A DNA stretch of 64,000 bases from the NCBI RefSeq assembly GCF_021917145.1, contig NC_061081.1, positions 8,153,769 through 8,217,768 of the forward strand, written 5' to 3'. Under the pieces are notes generated by a model. It worked only from the letters and a program-made list of their open reading frames with translations. It made no database searches and was not told the origin of the DNA. The position numbers and the translations under genes are program-made. The stretch comes from Hypomesus transpacificus. Lineage: Eukaryota; Chordata; Actinopteri; Osmeriformes; Osmeridae. Below, piece after piece: positions 11,201-47,300 of this stretch. Within the stretch, counting starts at the first letter, position 1. The number at the start of each line of letters is the position of its first letter.

Positions 11201-13862
11201 CTCACACTCAAAGCTCCAACACACACATGAATGACTTGACACACATGAATCCTTGGCATGTAATGATAACCAGATGAGTCCAGGTGATGGTGTTTAGAGG
11301 TATATGACTGGACACTGAAGGCATGTCCTCAATGTGTGTCAGGCAGGCGCCAGGCGTTGTGGAGGTGTACGGAGAGGAAGACCCAGACCACAGTAGCAAG
11401 TGACCTCTGTGGCCCCGCCCTTCCTCCTCTAAACCATGAAGAGGACTGCAACACCCAACCCTGTCCGGCATTGTGAGAAACCACCCACACGCATGCACAT
11501 ACACACACACACGTTTGTTTTACTAACCTAGTGAAGACTGACAATTTAACCCCTCTACAAACTACAAGTAGCGCAAGTTGTGGGGCTCAAGAAACTGTTC
11601 CCACAAGGTCTTCTTCTTAGATCCTTGTTAGATCCTTGTGGGGACTGCACACACACATACACAGTTAGATTAGAATCATATGTTGGTGTTAATCTCTGAT
11701 AACATAGAAGAAGGTAACTTCTTGTAAGACCTCTATGTGATTTGATCAAAGCTGGGACTTTGGGGAGTGGTCAGAGTGCAGCAAAAGGTGTGGCCCAGGA
11801 GTCCAGCACCGGCAGGTCCACTGTCGCCAGGTGACCAATAACAACAGCAACGGAACGGTGAGAGTGGTTACTGTGGGTACAGACCTGTGCGAAGATGATG
11901 TCACTGCTATGCCAGCGACATCACAGCCATGCCAACTGAAGGTCTGCAGCCAATGGCAGTTACGTTCTGATTGGAGTCCGGTGAGCCTGACATACTGATA
12001 ATACTACCATAGTATTACTGCAGTATCATTACTTTTACTCTGGTATCATACTTCATAACTTTTAATACAGAGTTAAAACAGTTATCTTTGGAAAGAAAAA
12101 AACTATGAATGCAATATTTTATGACTACAAAACCCTCTCACTATTTGTACCAACTGTCCCTCCAGTGCTCTGTGCCGTGTGGGGTTGGGCAGCGCAGCAG
12201 GGAGGTGGTGTGTGTGGGCGGCACGGGACTCGTGGAGGAGGACCAGGAGTGTAACCTGGCCCTGAAGCCAGACCACCTCCACAACTGTGACATGGGAGCC
12301 TGCGCACGCAGCTGGTACACCTCGCTCTGGAGTCAGCGGGTAGGCTGGGTGGGCAGGGTGGGGTAGGCTGGGTGGGCGGGGTGGGGTAGGCTGGGTGGGC
12401 AGGGTGCGGTAGGTGGGGTGGGCTGGGTGGGCGGGGTGCGGTAGGTGGGGTGGGCTGGGTGGGCAGGGTGGGGTGGGCAGGGTGGGGTAGGCTGGGTGGG
12501 CTGGGTGGGGTAGGCTGGGTGGGCAGGGTGGGGTAGGCTGGGTGGGCTGGGTGGGGTAGGCTGGGTGGGCAGGGTGGGGTAGGCTGGGTGGGCTGGGTGG
12601 GGTAGGCTGGGTGGGCAGGGTGGGGTAGGCGGGGTGGGTTGGGTGGGCGGGGCGGGAGGGAAGTTCATGGTTGTGTTATGTATTGTGTGTGTGTGCATGT
12701 GTACATGTGTCATCTCTGTATCATGTCAGTGTTCTGCAGAGTGTGGCAAGGGCAAACGCACCCGAGCGTCCGTGTGTCTTGTCGATCACGTGACCAACCT
12801 CCGATTGGGCGGCTGTGAAGGGGAGCGACCACAGGAAGTGACATCATGTGATGCCGGGCCATGTCGCCAACAAGTGGAGTGGTACGCAGGACCCTGGGGA
12901 CAGGTGTGCCACAGAACCCACCACATCCAACATGTCACATAACACACAGAACACGCACCATGTGATACCTTACCATGTCTGTATACTAAAGCTTAATTCA
13001 TGCTGAATACATCACATGCGATTACAAAAAGAGCAGTTAATTGCGGGTGTCCCAGTGTTCTGCAGAATGTGGAAATGGAACGCAGACCAGAGGCGTGGCA
13101 TGTCTCCTTAGAGACGAGGGTCGCCTACAGGCTGTTGACCAATCCAAATGTTTCCACTTGCCTCAGCCAATCAGCTCACAGCCCTGCCAGCTGAAGCTGT
13201 GTGGCATGCAGTGGTACATGACAGAATGGAGCGCGGTGAGAATGCATGCACTTCTCCTTCCTTCTCTTTCTCCATTCATCCATCCACATATCATCTGAAC
13301 AAGCCAGGGCATGCATAACCCATGCGTGCATCTCTCACAACTCCTTCTAAGCATACAGGTCAGCATTTTTATTTTGTCCCCCTGGCTCCCCCTAGTGTTC
13401 ACGCTCCTGTGAGGGCGGTTACCGCGTGCGTGAGGTGCGCTGCCTTGCCGACAACATGGCCCCTAGCGATCTCTGTGACCCCAGCCTGACCCCGGAGAGC
13501 AGCGCGGAGTGCAACCCCCAGCCCTGTGTAACAGACGCCAGTAAGACATCACAACACTCATGGCAGGGAGATTGATTTTCAAAATGAAACACATAACTGA
13601 ATGACTTTTCCCCTTCCACGTCCATTCTCCCCCTGCCGCTCTCCACTCCTCTCCAGGCTTGTCGTGCCGGGACCAGTATGATAACTGTGTGGTGGTGGTG
13701 CAGGCCAGGCTGTGTGTGTACCCCTACTACAGGACTGCCTGCTGCACTTCCTGTTCACGTGTGACAAACAAACACCCCTACCCATACCTGAAGACTCACC
13801 GCCGCAGACACACACTCCAACACACACCTGAGAACTCCGCAGATGATGGCACTTCAGAATAG
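8267..13862 (+). CDS. adamtsl4: ADAMTS-like protein, ADAMTSL4/THSD4 type, with mucin-like repeat exon
   Basis: Secreted extracellular-matrix glycoprotein of the ADAMTSL family; ADAMTSL4 is known to associate with fibrillin microfibrils. Twelve exons give 1,053 aa: 8267-8404, 8986-9106, 9194-9369, 9469-9577, 9798-11177, 11343-11472, 11752-11980, 12166-12339, 12730-12903, 13056-13235, 13396-13540, 13657-13862. A signal peptide (about 1-32) is followed directly by the spacer module (LGYHKILEIP, SIINGNWAI; about 47-160). Then come a 430-residue Ser/Thr/Pro/Tyr repeat domain (about 182-612), six TSP1 repeats (CSAECG, CSRSC patterns) and a C-terminal PLAC domain (VVQARLCVYPYY). The usual N-terminal TSP1 and cysteine-rich modules are absent. 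TSP1 and PLAC sequences look closest to ADAMTSL4; THSD4 is the alternative. Confidence 0.85.
9798..11177 (+). repeat. adamtsl4: Coding VNTR: 24-bp units encoding SPSYTDTV-type octapeptides
   Basis: The fifth exon of the adamtsl4-like gene is built from repeats. From about 10,436 to 10,955 there are roughly 20 near-identical 24-bp units (core CCCCTCCTACACAGACACTG) coding for octapeptides such as SPSYTDTV and SPSYIDTV. Before that, the repeats are more degenerate (SPSYSDTD, SPSHTYTD). The exon is 1,380 bp, exactly 460 codons, in phase 1 at both ends and without a stop, so it is translated. The product would be a Ser/Thr/Pro-rich, tyrosine- and aspartate-containing stalk, probably O-glycosylated. 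Confidence 0.95.
12340..12655 (+). repeat. G-rich 23-bp minisatellite starting at a 5' splice site
   Basis: The array starts at the first base of adamtsl4-like intron 8 and fills most of it. Units are about 23 bp with core TAGGCTGGGTGGGCAGGGTG, TAGG starts at 12,341, 12,364, 12,387 and 12,410, and roughly 13 copies. Each unit reproduces GGGTAGGCTGG, the context of the true donor (CGG|GTAGGCTGG). Dense GGG runs with short spacers fit G-quadruplex formation on the sense strand. Confidence 0.9.
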
Positions 13863-26136: not shown

Positions 26137-28306
26137 TATGTGCATGAGTGTGTGAGTGTCTACCTGATCTGAGTCCTCTTGACAGGGGCAGCCTCAGTGA
26201 AGACCACCACAGGTATGGCCAGGTTAAAGAAGCAGTTTTTGAACGACTCAAACCCGTATCCTCCAACCACCTTAATGAGCTCTAGAGCCACCTGTAAACA
26301 CACACTGTTAGGACCCTGTTACTGTGAGACAGACCCTGTTAGGATCCTGTTACTGTGATATACACACACTGTTAGGATCCTGCTACTGTGAGACACACAC
26401 CCTGTTAGGACCCTGTTACTGTGAGACAGACACACTGTTAGGACCCTGTTACTGTGAGACAGACACACTGTTATGACTCAATGAGTTTCATAAACAGGGA
26501 ACTCGTCAACCTGTTAGCTGTTTCCTTCCATCAGAGCCAACAAACATGTGCCGGTCTCTGCACTTTGAATCCCACCATGAGAAATCTGGTGTTTAGTTCT
26601 CACCAGCCCGGCGACGGCTGCCGTTGCCGTAGCGATGGCGGGGATAATCTTGCCGGCGATGCGCTTGGTCTTGAGGCGGTCGGCAGCCTCGATGGCGTAC
26701 ATCCTGGCACGCAGGCCGGACGCCGCCGCCACAAAGTCCATGTGCCCGTTACTGTCGTCATCCTTCTCAAACTGCAGGGGGGTCATCTGTAACCTCTCTG
26801 CACACATACACATCAAAGTGTGTTTGAAAGCAACAAGTATGTGTGTGTACCTGGTGTGATCTAGCAGCAGCAGGAGAGGTGTGTGTAACTGGTGGTGTTT
26901 ACCAGGAGTGTGTACCTGGTGTGTGTGGGTGTGTACCTGGTGTGTGTGGGTGTGTACCTGGTGTGTGTGGGTGTGTACCTGGTGTGTGTGGGTGTGTACC
27001 TGGTGTGTGTGGGTGTGTACCTGGTGTGTGTGGGTGTGTACCTGGTGTGTGTGGGTGTGTACCTGGTGTGTGTGGGTGTGTACCTGGTGTGACGTTGTCA
27101 GCAGCGATGACCTCCTCCAGCTGAGCGATGGCCGCCCTCTCCTCCTCGCTGCTCAGAGACAGCTTCAGCTGATCGGGCTTCTTAGCCGTCTCGTCTGTCT
27201 CAATGCGCTGGACACAACAACCAAACAAGACGATTCAACACCAACCAATGAGAAAACTGCACATTCAGGATGAATAAGAATAAAGCACGTTCAGTACCAA
27301 CCACTAAGAATATGGCACAGTAACAATTCCTCAACCGACGGCAGGATAACCTGTAAAGCAACGATCAAAATACATCCCTCCCTCCCTCTGTCACTACCTT
27401 CTCTGCAGGTCTGTATTCTGGAATATTGATGTGGGATAGGATCCTGGCCACAGCCTCCTGGGAGAGATCCTTCAGACACACACACACACCTGTATCACTC
27501 CTCATTCTACATGGTGCGTGTCTGTATGTATGTCAAATGTGTGCGCCAATGAGAGACAGGGTCAGTGTGCATTAGTGTGTGCACGCGTGAATGTATGAGC
27601 GACCGCGTGTGTGTTCACCTTTTCCAAGTAGGAGATGTTGTAGATCCCGGCAAAGAGTCGAGCGCCGCTGACGACAAAACTGAAGTGCCTGATGGGAAAG
27701 AAAGTGAAACAGGATGAGGGGGAGAGGACTGTGGCCTTCTTCTCCTCAACCACTGGGAACAGGAGGCTCCACTCACAATGGGTCGTTCAAGTCAAACTGG
27801 ATGGGCGACGGGGGTCTCTTAGGGGACTGCCAGAACAAACCTGAGGGGGAGGGACCACAGTCAGTCATCACGTCAACCTGATACATGCTGACTGTGTGTG
27901 TGTGTGTGTGTGAGTGGGAGAGAGAGACTTACTGCCATCCTTTAACCGTGTGTCCAGAGGGAAGGAGTGCAGCAGTTGTAGCGCCTGCAATGGCACACAT
28001 GCGTGAGACACGTGTGGGGGGAAAAACCATGAAATCCACAACTCATAGTAAGAAGCCACTGCTACTCGGACAGGCGCGTGTGAGTGTGTCTGAAGTGGTG
28101 GTATCGTTAGCCTACCTTTCTCTTGAAGTACTTGTCAAACTTGAGGCGGGCCAGAGTGACGCAGTGCTCCCATTGGCTGGGACGTCTGCTTAGCAGCTTG
28201 ATCACTTGGAATGCCCCCTCCATGCTCTCTCTGGCCTGCATCCTCTACACACACACACGTCAGAACGGGCATACATCAGCACATGGCAGGACACACCCAT
28301 ACAGAG

Positions 28307-28337
<31 letters not shown>

Positions 28338-31300
28338 GAGACACACACACAAAGAGACACACACACAAAGAGACACACACATCTACAGTCTATGCTTTTC
28401 TAGATGGATGTACGGTGGTAAATGTATGAATGATGCGTCTGAATCCTAAGTACCTGTATCACTGCCTCTGGTGAACAGTGAGTCTGCCAGAAAACATTAT
28501 AGATGGAGGGCTTGTGGGCAAATGTACTCTCAAACTAGAGAAAGACAGAGCGAGAGAGACAAAGAGATTAAAAGATGACTAGATTCCAGGCCCTTTTAAC
28601 AAAAGTATTGATAGATTAACATTCTAGAAGCACAAGTGAAGAGAGCTCACCTTGTCTCTGGCCCACTGGATGGTGTGTTCTATGACAGCAGGGAAAGACT
28701 TGAGAGTGCAGAACGGGATCTCCTCTTCAGGAGGGTCCCTCTGTCCCCACAAAGAAAACATTGTCTGTTTCAAAACAAAGCTAGCAGATATGCATTGGAA
28801 AGAAAACACTTATTAAAAGACATCCCTCCAACTAAACACAAACGGTAATGGAAGCAGGCAGTTACATGGCTGTTGTAGGACTCGGTCAGGTTTGGCACAA
28901 TGATCTCTGTGTGGCCTTTGGTTCCCATGGTCCCAGAGTCCAGGAGAGGTTTCTGATTGGATACGCTGCGGCTGTAAGTGGATCAAAAATGTCTGCATTG
29001 CATGACCTAGACACACATGTCCATAGCAATCCCCCCAGTGTAAAGCAGTACACAGAGGACGTTCTGCTGTTAGCCCCCCCCCCTCTCACCTGTCGACGTA
29101 TCGGCGGGCCTCCACGTTGTCGAGTGCCGTGACGACCAGGTGGAGGCGGGAGAAGAAGGCATCGTTGTACATGTTCTCGCTGGCGGGGCACACCTTGTTG
29201 AGGTGGGCGTCGATTTGCAGCTCAGGGTTGATGTCCTGAGTGGCGGCCGCTGCCATGGTGCTCTTAGGTTTCTGGGGGGGGGGGGGGGAGGGAGGGAAGG
29301 GGGAAGAGATGGAAGACAAAGGGGGGAGGAAGGAAGAAGGAAGGACGGAGGGGAGCGAGTGATCATGAGAGGTTGCCACCTCTCTGTGGACAATGATGAT
29401 GCATTGGGGCCACCTGTATGTGGCGTCAGCTCACCTGTATGTGGCGTGGTCTGAAGAGGAACTGTCTGTTGAGGTTAGACTTCTCGATCAGGTCGGGGTC
29501 TGTGATGCACACCTGGAGAGATCCCAGCACACACACACTGTTCATCCTTCCGTTGGATCATTGTTCTCTCCATCTTCCTGCTCATCTCTCTGTCCATCCA
29601 TCCGTTCATCCGTACCTCCCTCCCCCTCCCTTCTCCATCCATCTATCCATCCATCCAACAGAGACCTACCTCTCCACAACTCTTGGTCAATCCAACCCCC
29701 AGCAGGGCAAAGTTCTTCAGCATCTCACAGCCGATGGCTCCACAACCCACCTGGGGGGACAGAAAGACCAAACCATGAACTCCTGCTCTGTGTCTGTGTC
29801 TGGGGAGAAGGGGGAAAAGAGACTCTGGCTTCCATGTAGAACATATGTGTCTGTGAGGAGAAGGCAGACGGGACTCACCATGAAGACTCTCAGCTTGTGA
29901 AGCTCCAGGGACATGGACTGTCCTATGCAGGCGCGCAGCCCGTCGTAGCGGTCCCCCCTGCGGGGCACGCACACTCCATCATCAGCCTTTGAGTCAGATG
30001 TGTGCATGTGTATAGGTAAGTGTGTGTGTCTATGCATGTGTGTGTGTGTGTTACCTGGGAGAAAACTCCTCAGCAGGTAAATGCTGCAGCTGCCTCACTA
30101 CCTCTATGGCATCTAGGTAGAACTGTGGACAAGAATGAAAACAGAAAGATCCCAGAGAGAGAGATCCCAGAGAGAGAGAGATCCCAGAGAGAGAGAGATC
30201 CCAGAGAGAGAGAGATCCCAGAGAAAGAGAGATCCCAGAGAGAGAGAGATCCCAGAGAGAGAGAGAGATCCCAGAGAGAGAGAGATCCCAGGGAGAAAGA
30301 GAGATCCCAGAGAGAGAGAGATCCCAGAGAAAGAGAGATCCCAGAGAGAGAGAGATCCCAGGGAGAAAGAGAGATCCCAGAGAGAGAGAGATCCCAGGGA
30401 GGAAGGAGCAGAGAAAGGGAAAGAGAAGGACAACCCAATTAACAGACAAAATTCCAACTGTATACTCGACGGCATGTCCTGTTCCAGGGGTGTTCTTGGT
30501 GTTTCCTGGGAGGTGTTTCCGGTACCCACCCACTGCTGCAGGGGGGCGAACTTCCCCGTGAGGGCTTTGAGAACCTCCTGACTGGCCAGGCCTCCGGCTG
30601 CCGCGGCCAGAGGGGGGAGAGCGCCCCTCGCCGTCCTAGAGAGGCAGCGAACCAGCTCAGCATTGACTGGGGCCTGGAGAAGGGAGAGATGGGAGGTGGT
30701 GGTGAAGGGGAGAGGGGAAGATGATGAGAAAGGTGGGGAGGCAGGGTGGGGACGGAGAGGAAAAGGAAATTCTAGATATTTGAGGGTCGGATTTGAATGT
30801 GTGTCACACACTGTCTGTGTGTGTGTGTGCATGCGTGCGTGTGGAAACGCCTGGCTGAATCACTTTGTTTCGGAGCGTATTGTTGACTTCCTCTGTGAGC
30901 GTCACCAAAACCTCAGCATCCTGTAAGCACCTGCACACGAACAGCAGGAACACACACAGAACGGCCTCACGTCAGTGAACTAACCCGCTCGCTTAAAAGC
31001 TGTACATTATTATGTGTCAGCGCTGTTCTCTACACAGTTTGAAGCTGGGTTACCCGATGCTGGGAAGTCGACCATGCTGCTCCTGGAAGTTGTCCAAAGC
31101 CAACATGGCGGCATGGATCTGAAGTGGAGCCTAAGGGACGGATTCAGAATAAAGCAAATAGGAAACTGTCAGACCCCGCTCACTCTGACAGGAAGTTGAA
31201 CTGAGGAATTCTGATCCCTCACCTCTGGTTTGCTGAAATCTGGGGTCAGAACCTGGGGTTCGCAAAGCTGTCTCTCCATCGTCTCCTGAAGATAGACACA

Positions 31301-33139
31301 CCCACACACACCCACAGAAGAGGGAAGCATAGCTCTCTCAATATACAGTCTTAGGCAGCAAGGGTGATTTAAAACACTGTAGGTCGTGAAGAGAGAGATG
31401 GATGAAGTTGTGTTTTTCTCTGTGTGTATGTGTGTGCGTGTGTGTATGTGTGAGAGAGTGTGTCCACGTGTATAACGCTTACAAATCTGTATGTTGTAGG
31501 CGTCTTCTCCAAGAGGAAGAATCCACCATGGGTGTATTGCTGCATGTGAGATGTGTCTCCTACGGCAAAACTATGAGGGGAGAGGACTGGACCACACACA
31601 CGCACGCACACGCACGCACGCACACCATTGACATATCTCAGTAATAAAACGGGAATCTTACACAAAGCAGGTAACACGTGGCAAGTCGCAGTACCTGTGA
31701 CCTGGCGTGAGCGGCTGTTGAGCTCCTCCATGCCGTTGACCTCCCTGAACAGAACGCTCTGGCCCGTCTGGAGCCCGTGGGTCCGGCTATCCATACAGGT
31801 CACCACCCCCGGGTTGTCCTGGGGTCAGAGGTCAAACGGGACAGGTCAGAACACACACACACTCCCCTAAAACAGACACACACTTCCAAACACAGGAAGT
31901 GTTACCTGAGTGATGTGTTGGATGAATATCTCCTTAGGCTCCTCCCCCGTGGGGTCCGTCACCTCAAACTCCTCCCCAAAGTCACAGAACACCCGGACGC
32001 AGATCCCGTACGTGTCGCAGCCAATGAACTGCGGAGAAAAGCCGCAACGTCAGCGCGCATCAGTAACAAAGGGCTAATGCTAGAAAGGATACTGGATACA
32101 AAATACATTTACAGGTCTGAGAGGTCAATTTGATCCTTTGGCAACAGATATCATACGTCATGGTCACATAACTCACCCTGATCGGGGGCCGCTGGTAGTG
32201 GCAGAACTGGTCCACCTTCTTCTGCAAGGTCAGTCTGGCCTCTGTTAGAATGACACACTGGAACCCAGAACACAACCGGAGTGCGTTAGCCTCAACACAT
32301 GGGGCGGGTCAGAGGTGACAGTGGACCCCCCCAGCGACGGTGCCCGTCTCTGCCTCACCTGGTACCTCTTGAGGAAGTTGAGGTCCGTGGCGTCGTCCAG
32401 GGGGCAGGAGGATGTCTCCACGTGAACGTAGGGATTCAGTTCTGCCACCCTGGGGTGCACCGCCTCCACCCTGATGGGGGGAGGAGAACAGGGGGGAAGA
32501 GAGACAGGGGGGAAGAGAGACAGGGGGGAAGAGAGACAGGGGGGAAGAGAGACAGGGGGGAAGAGAGACAGGGGGGGAAGAGAGACAGGGGGGGAAGAGA
32601 TAGTAAAAGAGTGAATAAGTAGGAGACACATTAACAGGTACTGTAGAGACATCATTTAGAGTGATGGTGTCCTACCTTCTCCTCTGGTTTACCACATCAT
32701 CTTGGTGGATGAAGAAGTTGGAGCCGAGGTCCCAGGTCTCACACTGCCTGGAGTCATGGAGGGTCACAGCCTATGGATGAGGAACACACACACCCTTTGG
32801 TAGTCTTCAGATATGTTACAAATGAGAAGAATAGGTTCCCAGTGACTTAAAACTCACCTTCACACCTGCCAAGACTATGTTCTTAGCTGTGAAACAACAA
32901 CCATTAACAGTAAGACACTTCTGTCACACAACCATTGTGACTTTATCTTTTGCCATGCCATGCACATGATGTCATATCATGATAACATGCAGCACCTACC
33001 TATCTCCACTCCTAGACCTCCCAGTCCACTGATGAATACTGAGGACTGGGCCATCTGCTGCATGGCACTGTCCCCCAGCACATAGCGCTGACGGCTGGAT
33101 GGACCGATGGAGAGAGAGAGAGATAGAGATAGAGATAGA

Positions 33140-35106: not shown

Positions 35107-37849
35107 ATGTGGTGTAGTCGCGTGGCTTTGCGTCGTCTACAGCGGATTGCCGTTACTCCATTAAATACAGCAGGGGGTCTAACCGGCGCAGTGCAGAGAC
35201 AAATGTCAACGCTTCCGCGGGTGTATATCACCCGACAAATTCCCCCAGAGGGACTGAAGATCCTCCGGGAGTCTGGACAGTAAGTGTGTGACCACACAAA
35301 AACACAATGTTCAAATTGATGGCCCTTGTCTATAGTTTATTATGTAGGCTATGTTGTACAATTGTTTTGGGGTTATTTAACTGAACATTGTGGGTATAGG
35401 CTATATTTATAAAAGCATCTGCCAAATGAATACATTACACACATTTTACTTTTGTAAAATGCTAAGAGTTTGAAGTTGGTGAAAAAGTTCATCATTTACT
35501 TTGGGTAAACAGGTTTGCCAATATTTGCCCCGCCGACCTGTTGGATAAGAAGGGTCCAGTCAGTTTGCTTACATAGGTTGTGAGTGTTTGTGTGTGTGTG
35601 AGAGTTTAAATACATAATGTCTAGTTGCTCTTTAAATGTACGCTAACTTGTATATCATTTATTTGTTTATTTATTAATCTCAACGTCTCATTTCATGCAG
35701 AGTGCAGTTTGAGCTGTGGGACTCAGACGATGTCCCTGTGCCCAGATCGGAACTGCTCCAGAAGGTGAAAGGCATAGACGCTCTGCTCTGCGTTCTCACC
35801 GAGAAGATTGATACAGAGTTATTGGATGCCGCAGGTCAGGTGATTGTCTTTGTTGTCCATGTCAATGTCTTAACCCTGACACAATGCAAGGGGCCTCCTC
35901 TTATGTGTCTGTGCTGGCGTGTGTGTGTTCCTACAGGTCCAAACCTGAAGGTCATCAGCACTATGTCAGTGGGATTTGACCATTTGAATCTGGAGGAGCT
36001 GAAGAAGAGGTCAGTGACCTGACCAGATACACAGCAGGGACAGTCATGTGGCAATCCCTAATCCAATTCTGTGTATATATGTGTGTGCGTTTTCAGGGGG
36101 GTCCGTGTGGGCTACACCCCAGACGTTCTGACGGACTCTGTGGCAGAGCTCACCGTCGCTCTGCTGCTGACCACGTCCAGGAGATTGATCGAGGCCACGC
36201 ATGAAGCCAAGACGTACTGTCCACACACACTCACACACAGACACACACTCCCTCTCTCCCTGACACACACACATAAACTCTTTCTGTCTTACATACACAC
36301 ATGCTGCAACGTGTCTTCAAGTATGTCTAACCTCTTCTCCCTCTGTTCTCCTCCCCAGAGGAGGTTGGGGCACCTGGAGGACCTTGTGGCTGTGTGGCTA
36401 CGAGCTAGCTAACAGCACGGTGGGCATCCTGGGTCTGGGGAGGATCGGTGAGCATGACAACACTCCACCTCCCACACCCACACCTCATTACAACATGCAC
36501 ACCTCACACTAAACACACATCATGACACTCTCCCATACAATCTCACACGAAACACATACCCTGACCCATGTACTTCCACACGACGTTACTGCAGACGTTA
36601 GCATATCAGGTTGTTTAAATAGACGGATGCATTTGTCAAGCTGTAACTGTGTGTGCGACAGGGGTGGCCATCGCAGAGCGCCTGAAGCCCTTCAAGGTAA
36701 AGAAGTTCATCTACACCGACGTGGTACCCAGACCTGAACTGGCCAGCATGATCAATGCAGAGTACGGTGAGTAGCACCGGTCAACTCCCAGACCTCCATC
36801 TGAACAGCTATGGATAGATGGATGGATGAATGGATGGAGTGAGTGAATTGTGGTCTATGTTATGTATCTGTTGTTGTGTCTAACTATGTGTGTCATGTCT
36901 CTGTCCTCCAGTCTCTCTGGATGAGCTGGCTAAGCAGTCAGACTTCCTGACAATCTGCTGCGCTCTCACGCCAGAGACCAAGGAGATCTGCAACAAGAAC
37001 CTCTTTTCCAAGATGAAGAACACCTCCATTTTCATCAATACCAGCAGGTGACGGAGACACAGACATGCACATGCACAAATGTCCTACGTTTTCTAAATGT
37101 GTACATCAATAATGGAAACACACACAGATTTTCAGAGGTGTGTGTGTCTGGTGTTGTGTGTCAGGGGAGGGGTGGTGAACCAGCAGGACCTTTATGAGGC
37201 TCTGTCCATGGGTCAGATAGCCGGCGCCGGCCTGGACGTCACCGTCCCTGAGCCCCTCCCAATCAGCCACCCGCTTTTTACCCTCAAAAACTGTGGTGAG
37301 TCTGTCCTCTCCATCACTGTGGTGAGTCTGTCCTCTCCATCACTGTGGTGAGTCTGTCCTCTCCATCACTGTGGTGAGTCTGTCCTCTCCATCACTGTGG
37401 TGAGTCTGTCCTCTCCATCACTGTGGTGAGTCTGTCCTCTCCATCACTGTGGTGAGTCTGTCCTCTCCATCACTGTGGTGAGTCTGTCCTCTCCATCACT
37501 GCTTCCCTTGTCTCTCAGCTCTGTCCTCATGTCGTCACCTCTGGGGTTTTAATGCACCATTTCGATGCTTCTAAGCCCATAAAGAGACCTAATATTACTA
37601 TTAAAAAGTGTGGTTAAGTGTCTGAGGCTTTCACATGTATTTGTGACTTACACATTTGTGCTTGCTGTATATGAACAACAGAGCCTTATTGCACCTCTCT
37701 TCCTTTTCCCTCCATCCATCTTTACAGTAATTCTTCCTCACATCGCCAGTGCCTCCTACAGCACCCGAAATGCCATGTCTGCCCTGGCAGCCAATAACCT
37801 GCTGCTAGGCCTGACGGGCCAGCCAATGATCAAAGAGCTCAAGATTTAG
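35107..37849 (+). CDS. grhpr: Glyoxylate/hydroxypyruvate reductase
   Basis: NAD(P)H-dependent D-2-hydroxyacid dehydrogenase that reduces glyoxylate to glycolate and hydroxypyruvate to D-glycerate. Nine exons give 359 aa: 35107-35279, 35701-35834, 35937-36009, 36097-36213, 36359-36447, 36662-36766, 36912-37047, 37165-37295, 37728-37849. Visible motifs are [21 protein letters not shown], the substrate-loop tryptophans GGWGTW and LWLCGY, the Rossmann signature [16 protein letters not shown] (catalytic arginine), [10 protein letters not shown] and PHIASAS (catalytic histidine). Human GRHPR is 328 aa. The extra N-terminal 32 residues are rich in Arg and lack acids, so they look like a mitochondrial presequence. 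A second in-frame ATG at 35,203 would give a protein close to the human length. Confidence 0.95.
37296..37501 (+). repeat. grhpr: 26-bp minisatellite of reiterated 5' splice sites in grhpr intron 8
   Basis: Eight copies of a 26-bp unit (GTGAGTCTGTCCTCTCCATC plus ACTGTG) start at the first intron base. GTGAGT occurs at 37296, 37322, 37348, 37374, 37400, 37426, 37452 and 37478. The exon ends ACTGTG|GTGAGTCTG, and each unit restores ACTGTG|GTGAGTCTG exactly. The 26-bp period shifts frame, and read-through soon meets a stop. Confidence 0.97.
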
Positions 37850-44319: not shown

Positions 44320-47300
44320 ATGGACGCGAAGTGTTCACTCGTATGTTGCGAAGAGGAAAGAGAGGCAGATCAAGCAGTTATCGGTAACTATTTTTACGTG
44401 ACATTTTGTCTGTACTAATAAAATAAACGTGTACTATCGTAATATTGAAATGATGTACCCCTAGGCTAAGACGTTTCACTGTAAAATACATATTTCCGTC
44501 GCACACGTGGGTGCCCCATCCTGAATGGTATGCAGTCTTTTTTGACCGTGACCAATTTGCTATATGTGCTCTTCAGTTCAGTTCTCTAATGGGACCTTGC
44601 AGAAAACAGATCAGCTAAACTTTACCTTTTACAAGAACGTCGATGAAAACCACCCGAGGAAGAAGAGCAGACGCTTTTTGGTAAGAGATCAGCGTTGTAA
44701 TGCAAGAACAGCCTTCATATCCCATGATGAAAGGGTTGACCAATTCTCACATCTCCACTTTACAGGTTGCTGAATCAGACAGACTGTCCTACGTTGGGAA
44801 TAACTTTGAAACAGGATCCTTAAAATGTAACAACCTTTGCAGGTAGGCATCCTTCTACAGAATGACTCACAGCCAACCCAGCTGCCTCACCAGCACCATC
44901 TGAGGGACCATTGTTTCCAAGAGAACTGAAGTATTCCAGTGTTAGAATAAACAGGTGTGTGGGGTGTGTAGTAACAATTCAGTCGTTGTCGTAAACTGTT
45001 TACAGATACTATGTTGGAGTCCTAAACAAGGAGACCATGAAGATGGAGGTGCACAACGCTCTGCTCTTCAACATGCAGCCAGTCATCCCAGGTAAGGAAA
45101 AAACAAACCCAATTATCATATATAGGGCTGCATTCAACAACACCATCTGCTTTTCACTGGTATTCCTTCCTGTTCAAGGATAAGGAGAGAAACATAATCT
45201 CTCTCTGAGATGTATTTTGAGTTGTAGAATGTTGCTTGTTCTGTCACTGTAGTGAGGATGGGAATGTGGTCCTCTCATTACAGGGGAGATTGCCCCCGAG
45301 TCTGACCCGTCTAGTAACAACCAAACATACAGAGACAAGGTAGATGCACACTCGCAAGTAAACACTGCACTGTACCCTCTACATCGGAAATGAATGAATA
45401 CATAAATAAAAGAAACAATATATTCTGGCTTTCCCTGTTTAACCCTTTCCTCTCTGGCCAGGTGGACTCTCTAATTGAGGCATTTGGCTCCAACAAGCAA
45501 AAGCGAGCCCTGACCTCGCGCAGGCTGAACCAGGTGGGCAGTGAAACCCTGCAGCAGGCAGTGGCCAAGGCAGCCCAGAACGTCATCGATCAGAAGGGTC
45601 TGGAAGGTGAATGCAGGCCCATTTCCACACTACCACCTCACTACTGGACAAATGCGGCAAGCATGCAACAAACTGCTAATACTAAGATGAATTCCATGGG
45701 AGCACTGTCAGAAACGCACATCTACCTACTCACCTCCAGCCCCTCGTCCCTGCCTCACCCTGTGTCCTCTCTCTCTCCCTACCTCATCCCTGCCTCACCC
45801 TGTGTCCTCTCTCTCCCTACCTCGTCCCTGCCTCACCCTGTGTTCTCTCTCTCTCTCTCTCCCTACCTCATCCCTGCCTCACCCTGTGTTCTCTCCCTAC
45901 CTCGTCCCTGCCTCACCCTGTCCTCTCTCTCTCCCTACCTCGTCCCTGCCTCACCCTGTGTCCTCTCCCTACCTCGTCCCTGCCTCACCCTGTGTCCTCT
46001 CCCTACCTCGTCCCTGCCTCACCCTGTGTCCTCTCCCTACCTCGTCCCTGCCTCACCCTGTGTCCTCTCCCTACCTCGTCCCTGCCTCACCCTGTGTCCT
46101 CTCCCTACCTCGTCCCTGCCTCACCCTGTGTCCTCTCCCTACCTCGTCCCTGCCTCACCCTGTGTCCTCTCTCTCTCCATACCTCGTCCCTGCCTCACCC
46201 TGTGTCCTCTCTCTCCACACCTCGTCCCCAGCCCTGCAGGACGAACTGTCCCAGACACAGGCTCAGTCAGAGTTCGCTCCCTACCTGCCTCCATGCCACC
46301 CAGATGCCACCTCCCCCGACCAGGTCTACCTCTTTGATGACTGTATCCTTTCCCTGCTATCTGGACATGTGTGTGGAATAGTGTGTGAAGATCTGAGATT
46401 AGCATATATACATGTATATACATGTAGCCACTTTGTCCTGGATGTGTGTGTCTCCTTATCCATGTCCCAGTGCTAACCCCAGTAGAGTACAGTGCCCTCG
46501 AGGCGGCGGGATCCAAGATGGCCACCCTCTCCCAAGAGGAGTTACAGAAGATGAGAGACAGCGGAGGGTAGGGTATTCTTCTATAATAGCTAGGGTTGCG
46601 AAATTCTGGGATTTTTTGGAGTTGGAAACTTTTCATGGGAATAAACTGGAAATGTTCAGGTAAATGTAGTAGGGGGGGGAAACATCTTGCAGCATATTCT
46701 TGGTTAAAAGAACCACATTTCATGTAAATTCTGTTGAATGTCACACATCACACTACTTGCTTCTGGGCTCTTGAAGCCACACTACTGCATGCACTGTCCA
46801 TTCCTCCATCACATGCACTGTCCATTCCTCCATCACATGCACTGTCCATTCCTCCATCACATGCACTGTCCATTCCTCCATCACATGCACTGTCCATTCC
46901 TCCATCACATGCACTGTCCATTCCTCCATCACATGCACAGATCATTTCTACACTACAGCAGGACATCCTCTTTCTCCATCAGCTTGGTGTTGAATACAAT
47001 GTTTTTGAGATGGCTATCGTTTAAACTGGGGAAACACAAATCTAAATCCATGGATTTACATTTATGTAAATCTACAGACCTGGTGTGTGCATGTGTGTGT
47101 TCTAGGAACCAGTGTGTAGTGCAGCAGCTGACCCGCCTGCCCAGTGAGGGCCCTGCCAGGGACAGACAGGCACGCTGTGCCTACTACCTGAGCATGCTCC
47201 TAAAACTAGTCCACCTGAAGATGTTCACGCGCAGGTGTAAGTATCATGCTGTGTGTGTGTGGGTGTGTGTGGGGGACTGCAGAATTGTGTTTATGTGTTT

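Follow-up and report, generated by a model that had tools for sequence, protein, structure and literature searches.

Nine in-frame copies of a 5' splice site at the end of uba6 exon 27 in Hypomesus transpacificus, and comparable exon-end minisatellites in the same genome

The uba6 gene was located on the minus strand of the window, which is the whole 64,000-nt stretch of Hypomesus transpacificus DNA analyzed in this study, between roughly 33.4 and 25.3 kb. Human UBA6 as query gave 26 tblastn segments at this locus, one of which was out of order and probably spurious. The peptide scored 129 bits to UBA6 versus 87 bits to UBA1, and the SCCH domain of the uba6 product exceeded the Pfam cut-off. 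Exon 27, as numbered by a count made by eye, spanned positions 27084–27207 (minus strand). It was preceded by the acceptor tccag before 27207, matched human UBA6 and ended with CACACCAG at the first donor. Intron 27 (26798–27083, minus strand) ended with gtgtgcag and was 286 nt long from the first donor and 118 nt long from the ninth. The next exon (26604–26797, minus strand) had the donor CTG/GTGAGA, in which the slash marks the exon-intron boundary. Joining 27084 to 26797 gave VTPERLQM with no gap at the junction relative to human UBA6. Because the splice from the first donor aligns gaplessly with the human protein, 27084 is taken as the ancestral uba6 donor and the other copies as additions.

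A 21-bp minisatellite was identified by TRF at 26908–27091 (minus strand), with a period of 21, 8.8 copies, 100% matches and no indels. It began 8 nt inside exon 27, and its unit consisted of the last 8 nt of this exon and 13 nt of the intron. Nine donors, CAG/GTACAC, followed each other in 21-nt steps at 26916–27084, with their last exon bases at 27084, 27063, 27042, 27021, 27000, 26979, 26958, 26937, and 26916. Thus, the proposals of the earlier note that a 21-bp minisatellite in uba6 intron 27 is an amplified exon-intron boundary and that it carries nine tandem 5' splice sites agree with the sequence and, for the intron number, with the count by eye, although the array is slightly wider than the 26913–27087 given there. 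All nine donors read CACACCAG/GTACAC and were identical from -8 to +8; copy 1 departed from the others only further upstream, on the exon side, and copy 9 only further downstream. They must therefore score equally under any 9-mer donor model. The predicted pairing with U1 was also equal, at -7.1 kcal/mol and confined to -3 to +3, as each unit resembles the donor consensus with mismatches at +4 to +6.

The exact 21-bp unit had 8 matches in the 437-Mb genome, every one inside the uba6 array, and its reversed pattern had no match in the same 437 Mb. Three outlying relics of the unit were found at 26851–26903 (minus strand), whose best-matching 12-nt stretches lay at 26903 (9 of 12 nt identical), 26889 (11 of 12, without the donor GT) and 26851 (12 of 12). 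The last of these is a tenth donor copy, which lies 65 nt beyond the ninth, out of phase and behind an in-frame TAA, and would leave an intron of 53 nt. The decayed relics at 26903 and 26889 indicate an older fringe downstream of the array. Perfect repeats are easily misassembled, so that the repeat could have been collapsed or expanded and the true array could have a different copy number or be absent. This appears highly improbable, however, as the array is only 184 bp within a 15-Mb contig and is followed by decayed relics, and similar independent arrays occur elsewhere in the genome.

The reading frame of exon 27 ran open across the nine donors as ...IAADNVTPG(THPHTPG)x8 THSW, followed by TAA. 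Hence the earlier assertions that the period is a multiple of three, that phase is kept and that the frame stays open through all units are correct. Donor n+1 would place n copies of GTHPHTP between VTP and ERLQM, with n up to 8, while the candidate introns shrink from 286 to 118 nt. Judged from the sequence, a ladder of UBA6 isoforms is only possible.

The human IFI6 gene (G1P3, 6-16) has a minisatellite that begins at an exon end and consists of 26 repeats of 12 nt. This minisatellite is reported to supply several splice donors (Turri, Cuin and Porter, 1995, NAR 23:1854); two of its downstream repeat units are said to be used, with the 130-aa form described as predominant (PMC4526556). The uba6 array is of a kind with published precedent. 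Similar to IFI6, it extends from the exon end into the intron and has a donor in every unit, and its period of 21 keeps the frame for all nine. IFI6 mRNA forms differ by repeat units; the downstream uba6 donors are candidate sites. Different from IFI6, the array concerns another gene in a fish host and has a 21-bp unit in nine perfect copies. GYNGYN tandem donors are spaced by a few nt. In the GYNGYN report, neighboring donors can likewise subtly alter protein length (PMC1779574), but these are overlapping sites and not a repeat array. Tandem duplication of splice signals also underlies intron gain by tandem genomic duplication (PMC4974935); that process, however, creates a new intron, whereas in uba6 an existing donor is multiplied. 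A literature search for such arrays and related duplications returned no title on fish cases among the journals covered, which excluded most subscription journals.

Two further arrays at donors were found in the window. The first was a perfect 26-bp array of 8.2 copies (37290–37501, plus strand; TRF) at the donor CTGTG/GTGAGT of a GRHPR-like gene. It started 6 nt inside the exon, whose junction NC/VILPH aligned with human GRHPR without a gap. With a period that is no multiple of three, the array does not preserve phase, and its frame stopped at +53. The second was a G-rich, degenerate 23/46-bp array (12338–12660, plus strand) starting at the likely donor WSQR/GTAGGC of an ADAMTS-like TSP1 exon. 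Arrays were also observed just upstream of acceptors at 26298–26477, 30143–30401, and 32476–32600 (all minus strand) and at 45742–46211 (plus strand). Three of these were at uba6 exons, and the exon at the fourth had a weak match to RNA polymerase I A49 that did not reach the Pfam cut-off. The arrays at 30143–30401, 32476–32600, and 45742–46211 were pyrimidine-rich on the gene strand. A branch-point-like CCTAAC was present in the 33-bp unit at 26298.

The whole 437-Mb genome was surveyed with triple-motif patterns of AGGTRAGT, TGGTGAGT, and CAGGTACAC. The first ~100 matches listed for each pattern corresponded to 19, 17, and 14 arrays, respectively; one of the 17 TGGTGAGT arrays was the opposite strand of another and was dropped, leaving 49 arrays (19, 16, and 14). 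Among the matches listed, a coding exon was judged to end at the first donor in 17 of the 49, namely 2 of 19 for AGGTRAGT, 6 of 16 for TGGTGAGT, and 9 of 14 for CAGGTACAC. Also among the matches listed, 9 of the 17 upstream peptides passed the Pfam cut-off, with the families being glycosyl hydrolase 47 (MAN1A), neurotransmitter-gated channel, aldehyde dehydrogenase, Na/H exchanger, 14-3-3, choline transporter, dynein, myosin tail, and glucosyltransferase 24, which was barely above the cut-off. Two others matched weakly and did not reach the cut-off (ANF receptor and WHIM1). For the remaining six, Pfam gave nothing informative, and the exon call relied on a frame that was open and protein-like (PRPF39-like, KCC-like, MyBP-C-like, and the unnamed L077, L080, and L087); at the PRPF39-like and KCC-like loci we also take the next exon to be recognized. 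Gene names more specific than a Pfam family are our presumptive assignments, with the exception of MAN1A and of the window genes UBA6 and GRHPR.

Together with the three arrays in the window, these 17 (among the matches listed) gave 20 exon-end arrays. Each contained 3 to 42 donor copies with a common core motif, several of the survey copy numbers being lower bounds as the analyzed piece ends inside the array. Units shared 2–24 nt with the exon end, which is the mark of boundary duplication. In L041 (minus strand, around 2057–2577), a MAN1A-like exon end had been multiplied some 20-fold; the repeat unit measured 26 bp and had 24 nt in common with the exon end. Elsewhere, a 45-bp array in L049 (G000:C4:9503700-9507900, around 2024) apparently spanned the acceptor of an opposite-strand exon, QDIDEKDELIRELES..., and thus appears to be a repeated 3' splice site; this exon had no convincing Pfam match. 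The CAGGTACAC array of L075 (G000:C1:1722800-1723500), with a repeat of ~20 bp, was not splice-site-like. We presume that it sits within a transposase-coding stretch, for which no Pfam match was obtained.

In the whole genome, matches to the patterns versus their reversed patterns numbered 656 versus 468 for AGGTRAGT, 507 versus 204 for TGGTGAGT, and 1201 versus 209 for CAGGTACAC, a weak comparison as overlapping matches in long arrays inflate these counts. CAGGTACAC triples were 5.7 times commoner than their reversed pattern; our guess is that this excess perhaps comes from introns in this genome often starting with GTACACACA and then growing CA-rich repeats. The abundance of arrays of this weak donor also bears on whether many U1 sites together boost CAG/GTACAC, in which case selection would keep the array for splicing strength and not for isoforms. 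The lack of pairing at +4 to +6 in uba6, where U1 is limited to -3 to +3, and the exons abutted by 9 of the 14 sampled CAGGTACAC arrays (among the matches listed) are consistent with such redundancy. However, other uba6 donors are similarly weak without any array (CAG/GTACTG and CAG/GTAACA), strong donors are amplified as well (the GTGAGT sets), and the match counts are inflated as stated above. We thus regard this explanation as quite unlikely.

The 20 exon-end arrays contained 175 downstream donors, of which 55 were in phase; 30 of these also preceded the first in-frame stop. The uba6 array contributed 8 of these 30 usable donors and was the only one of the 20 in which every donor of the regular array was usable. 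Six further arrays had some usable downstream donors, whereas 13 of the 20 had none that combined correct phase with a position ahead of a stop. Without uba6, 47 of 166 downstream donors (28%) were in phase, versus the one third expected by chance, and no excess of phase-keeping periods was found among the comparable arrays; of the 11 periods in a previously compiled subset, 3 kept phase. Given these proportions, the phase fit of uba6 is probably luck, and selection for phase is not needed to explain it.

These results also bear on a functional ladder, in which several or all of the nine donors would be used at relevant levels to make UBA6 with 0–8 heptapeptides and copy number would set the range. 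The identical, in-phase and open donors, the unique position of uba6 among the 20 arrays and the two downstream units reported as used in IFI6 are all compatible with it. Nevertheless, phase was not enriched outside uba6, one fully open array in 20 requires no selection, and conserved genes carry comparable arrays with out-of-frame periods or immediate stops, which argues against a purposeful ladder. Hence, a functional ladder is considered unlikely.

For a base rate, uba6 exons were used to train a codon score, with which the 90 nt preceding each first donor were then rated. Among the matches listed, 14 of the 49 arrays were coding-like before the donor, versus 7% of random window positions. 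These 14 comprised 13 of the 17 exon-end arrays and L049, and four exon-end arrays fell below the threshold. Isolated motifs were preceded by coding-like sequence at 5 of 25 sites of the three survey motifs and at 24 of 132 isolated CAGGTA. As the arrays are not clearly distinct from isolated motifs in this respect (14 of 49 versus 5 of 25), no preference of minisatellites for real donors is claimed. That arrays are coding-like about as often as isolated motifs fits a neutral origin, with repeats arising at donor-like sites regardless of use.

Overall, the most probable explanation, and one in which we place reasonable though by no means complete confidence, is a neutral duplication of the boundary with dominant use of the first donor and at most minor forms with 7 or 14 additional residues. 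A tandem duplication across the boundary of exon 27 and intron 27 would have taken in the donor together with 8 nt of exon and 13 nt of intron, after which slippage or unequal exchange could have expanded it to nine perfect copies. The spliceosome would mainly pick the exon-most, ancestral copy at 27084 and yield normal UBA6, so that the array is tolerated. Downstream copies could pair with U1 yet lose out, or see low-level use. Slips to later donors would add GTHPHTP repeats as minor isoforms and be harmless to the frame, because period and frame happen to fit.

Indirect support for first-copy dominance is drawn from many loci that agree with one another. Where arrays in conserved genes break the frame, the first copy must be used in most transcripts, and the 13 arrays without any usable downstream donor imply that those genes rely mainly on their first copy. 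Against this explanation is the composition of the survey, in which 6 of the 17 exon calls had no informative Pfam match, two had weak ones and four were below the codon threshold. Moreover, the dominance proposed for uba6 is extrapolated from arrays at other genes, and these might have features not shared by uba6.

Intron definition in short introns favors intron-proximal sites, as older experiments with duplicated donors reportedly do. If such a preference prevailed in uba6, the ninth donor (26916) or a late copy would be the main site and UBA6 would be up to 56 residues longer; the 118-nt intron left by the ninth donor is workable. Similarly, in DOK7 the intron-proximal of two competing donors was preferred, which was also the stronger site (PMC5585400). 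Proximal preference would, however, harm GRHPR, MAN1A, ALDH6A1, NHE, KCC, and others, in which late copies break the frame, and is therefore very unlikely. First-donor use in uba6 cannot be due to local strength, as the nine donors are identical with equal U1 pairing; donor strength is thus rejected as a discriminator. The likely cause of first-donor choice is where a copy lies with respect to the exon and its enhancers, or co-transcriptional order. In line with the 130-aa form described as predominant for IFI6, uba6 is expected to yield mostly normal protein.

The main interest of the uba6 array lies in the recurrence of such arrays, which makes this genome a test of donor choice. Crude scaling of the sampled matches suggests a class on the order of a hundred or more. 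Tentatively, the genome may hold a large class of minisatellites with multiplied true 5' splice sites, a natural experiment on the choice between like donors, with uba6 among the few that are wholly coding-compatible and with a protein length that may vary with copy number between individuals. The role of position in donor choice is a long-standing question in splicing and has usually been tested with engineered minigenes. With 20 exon-end arrays, many of them frame-breaking, ordinary RNA-seq could ask whether position alone sets donor choice. As the in-frame case, uba6 would make slips visible as +21-nt steps that are not lost to nonsense-mediated decay.
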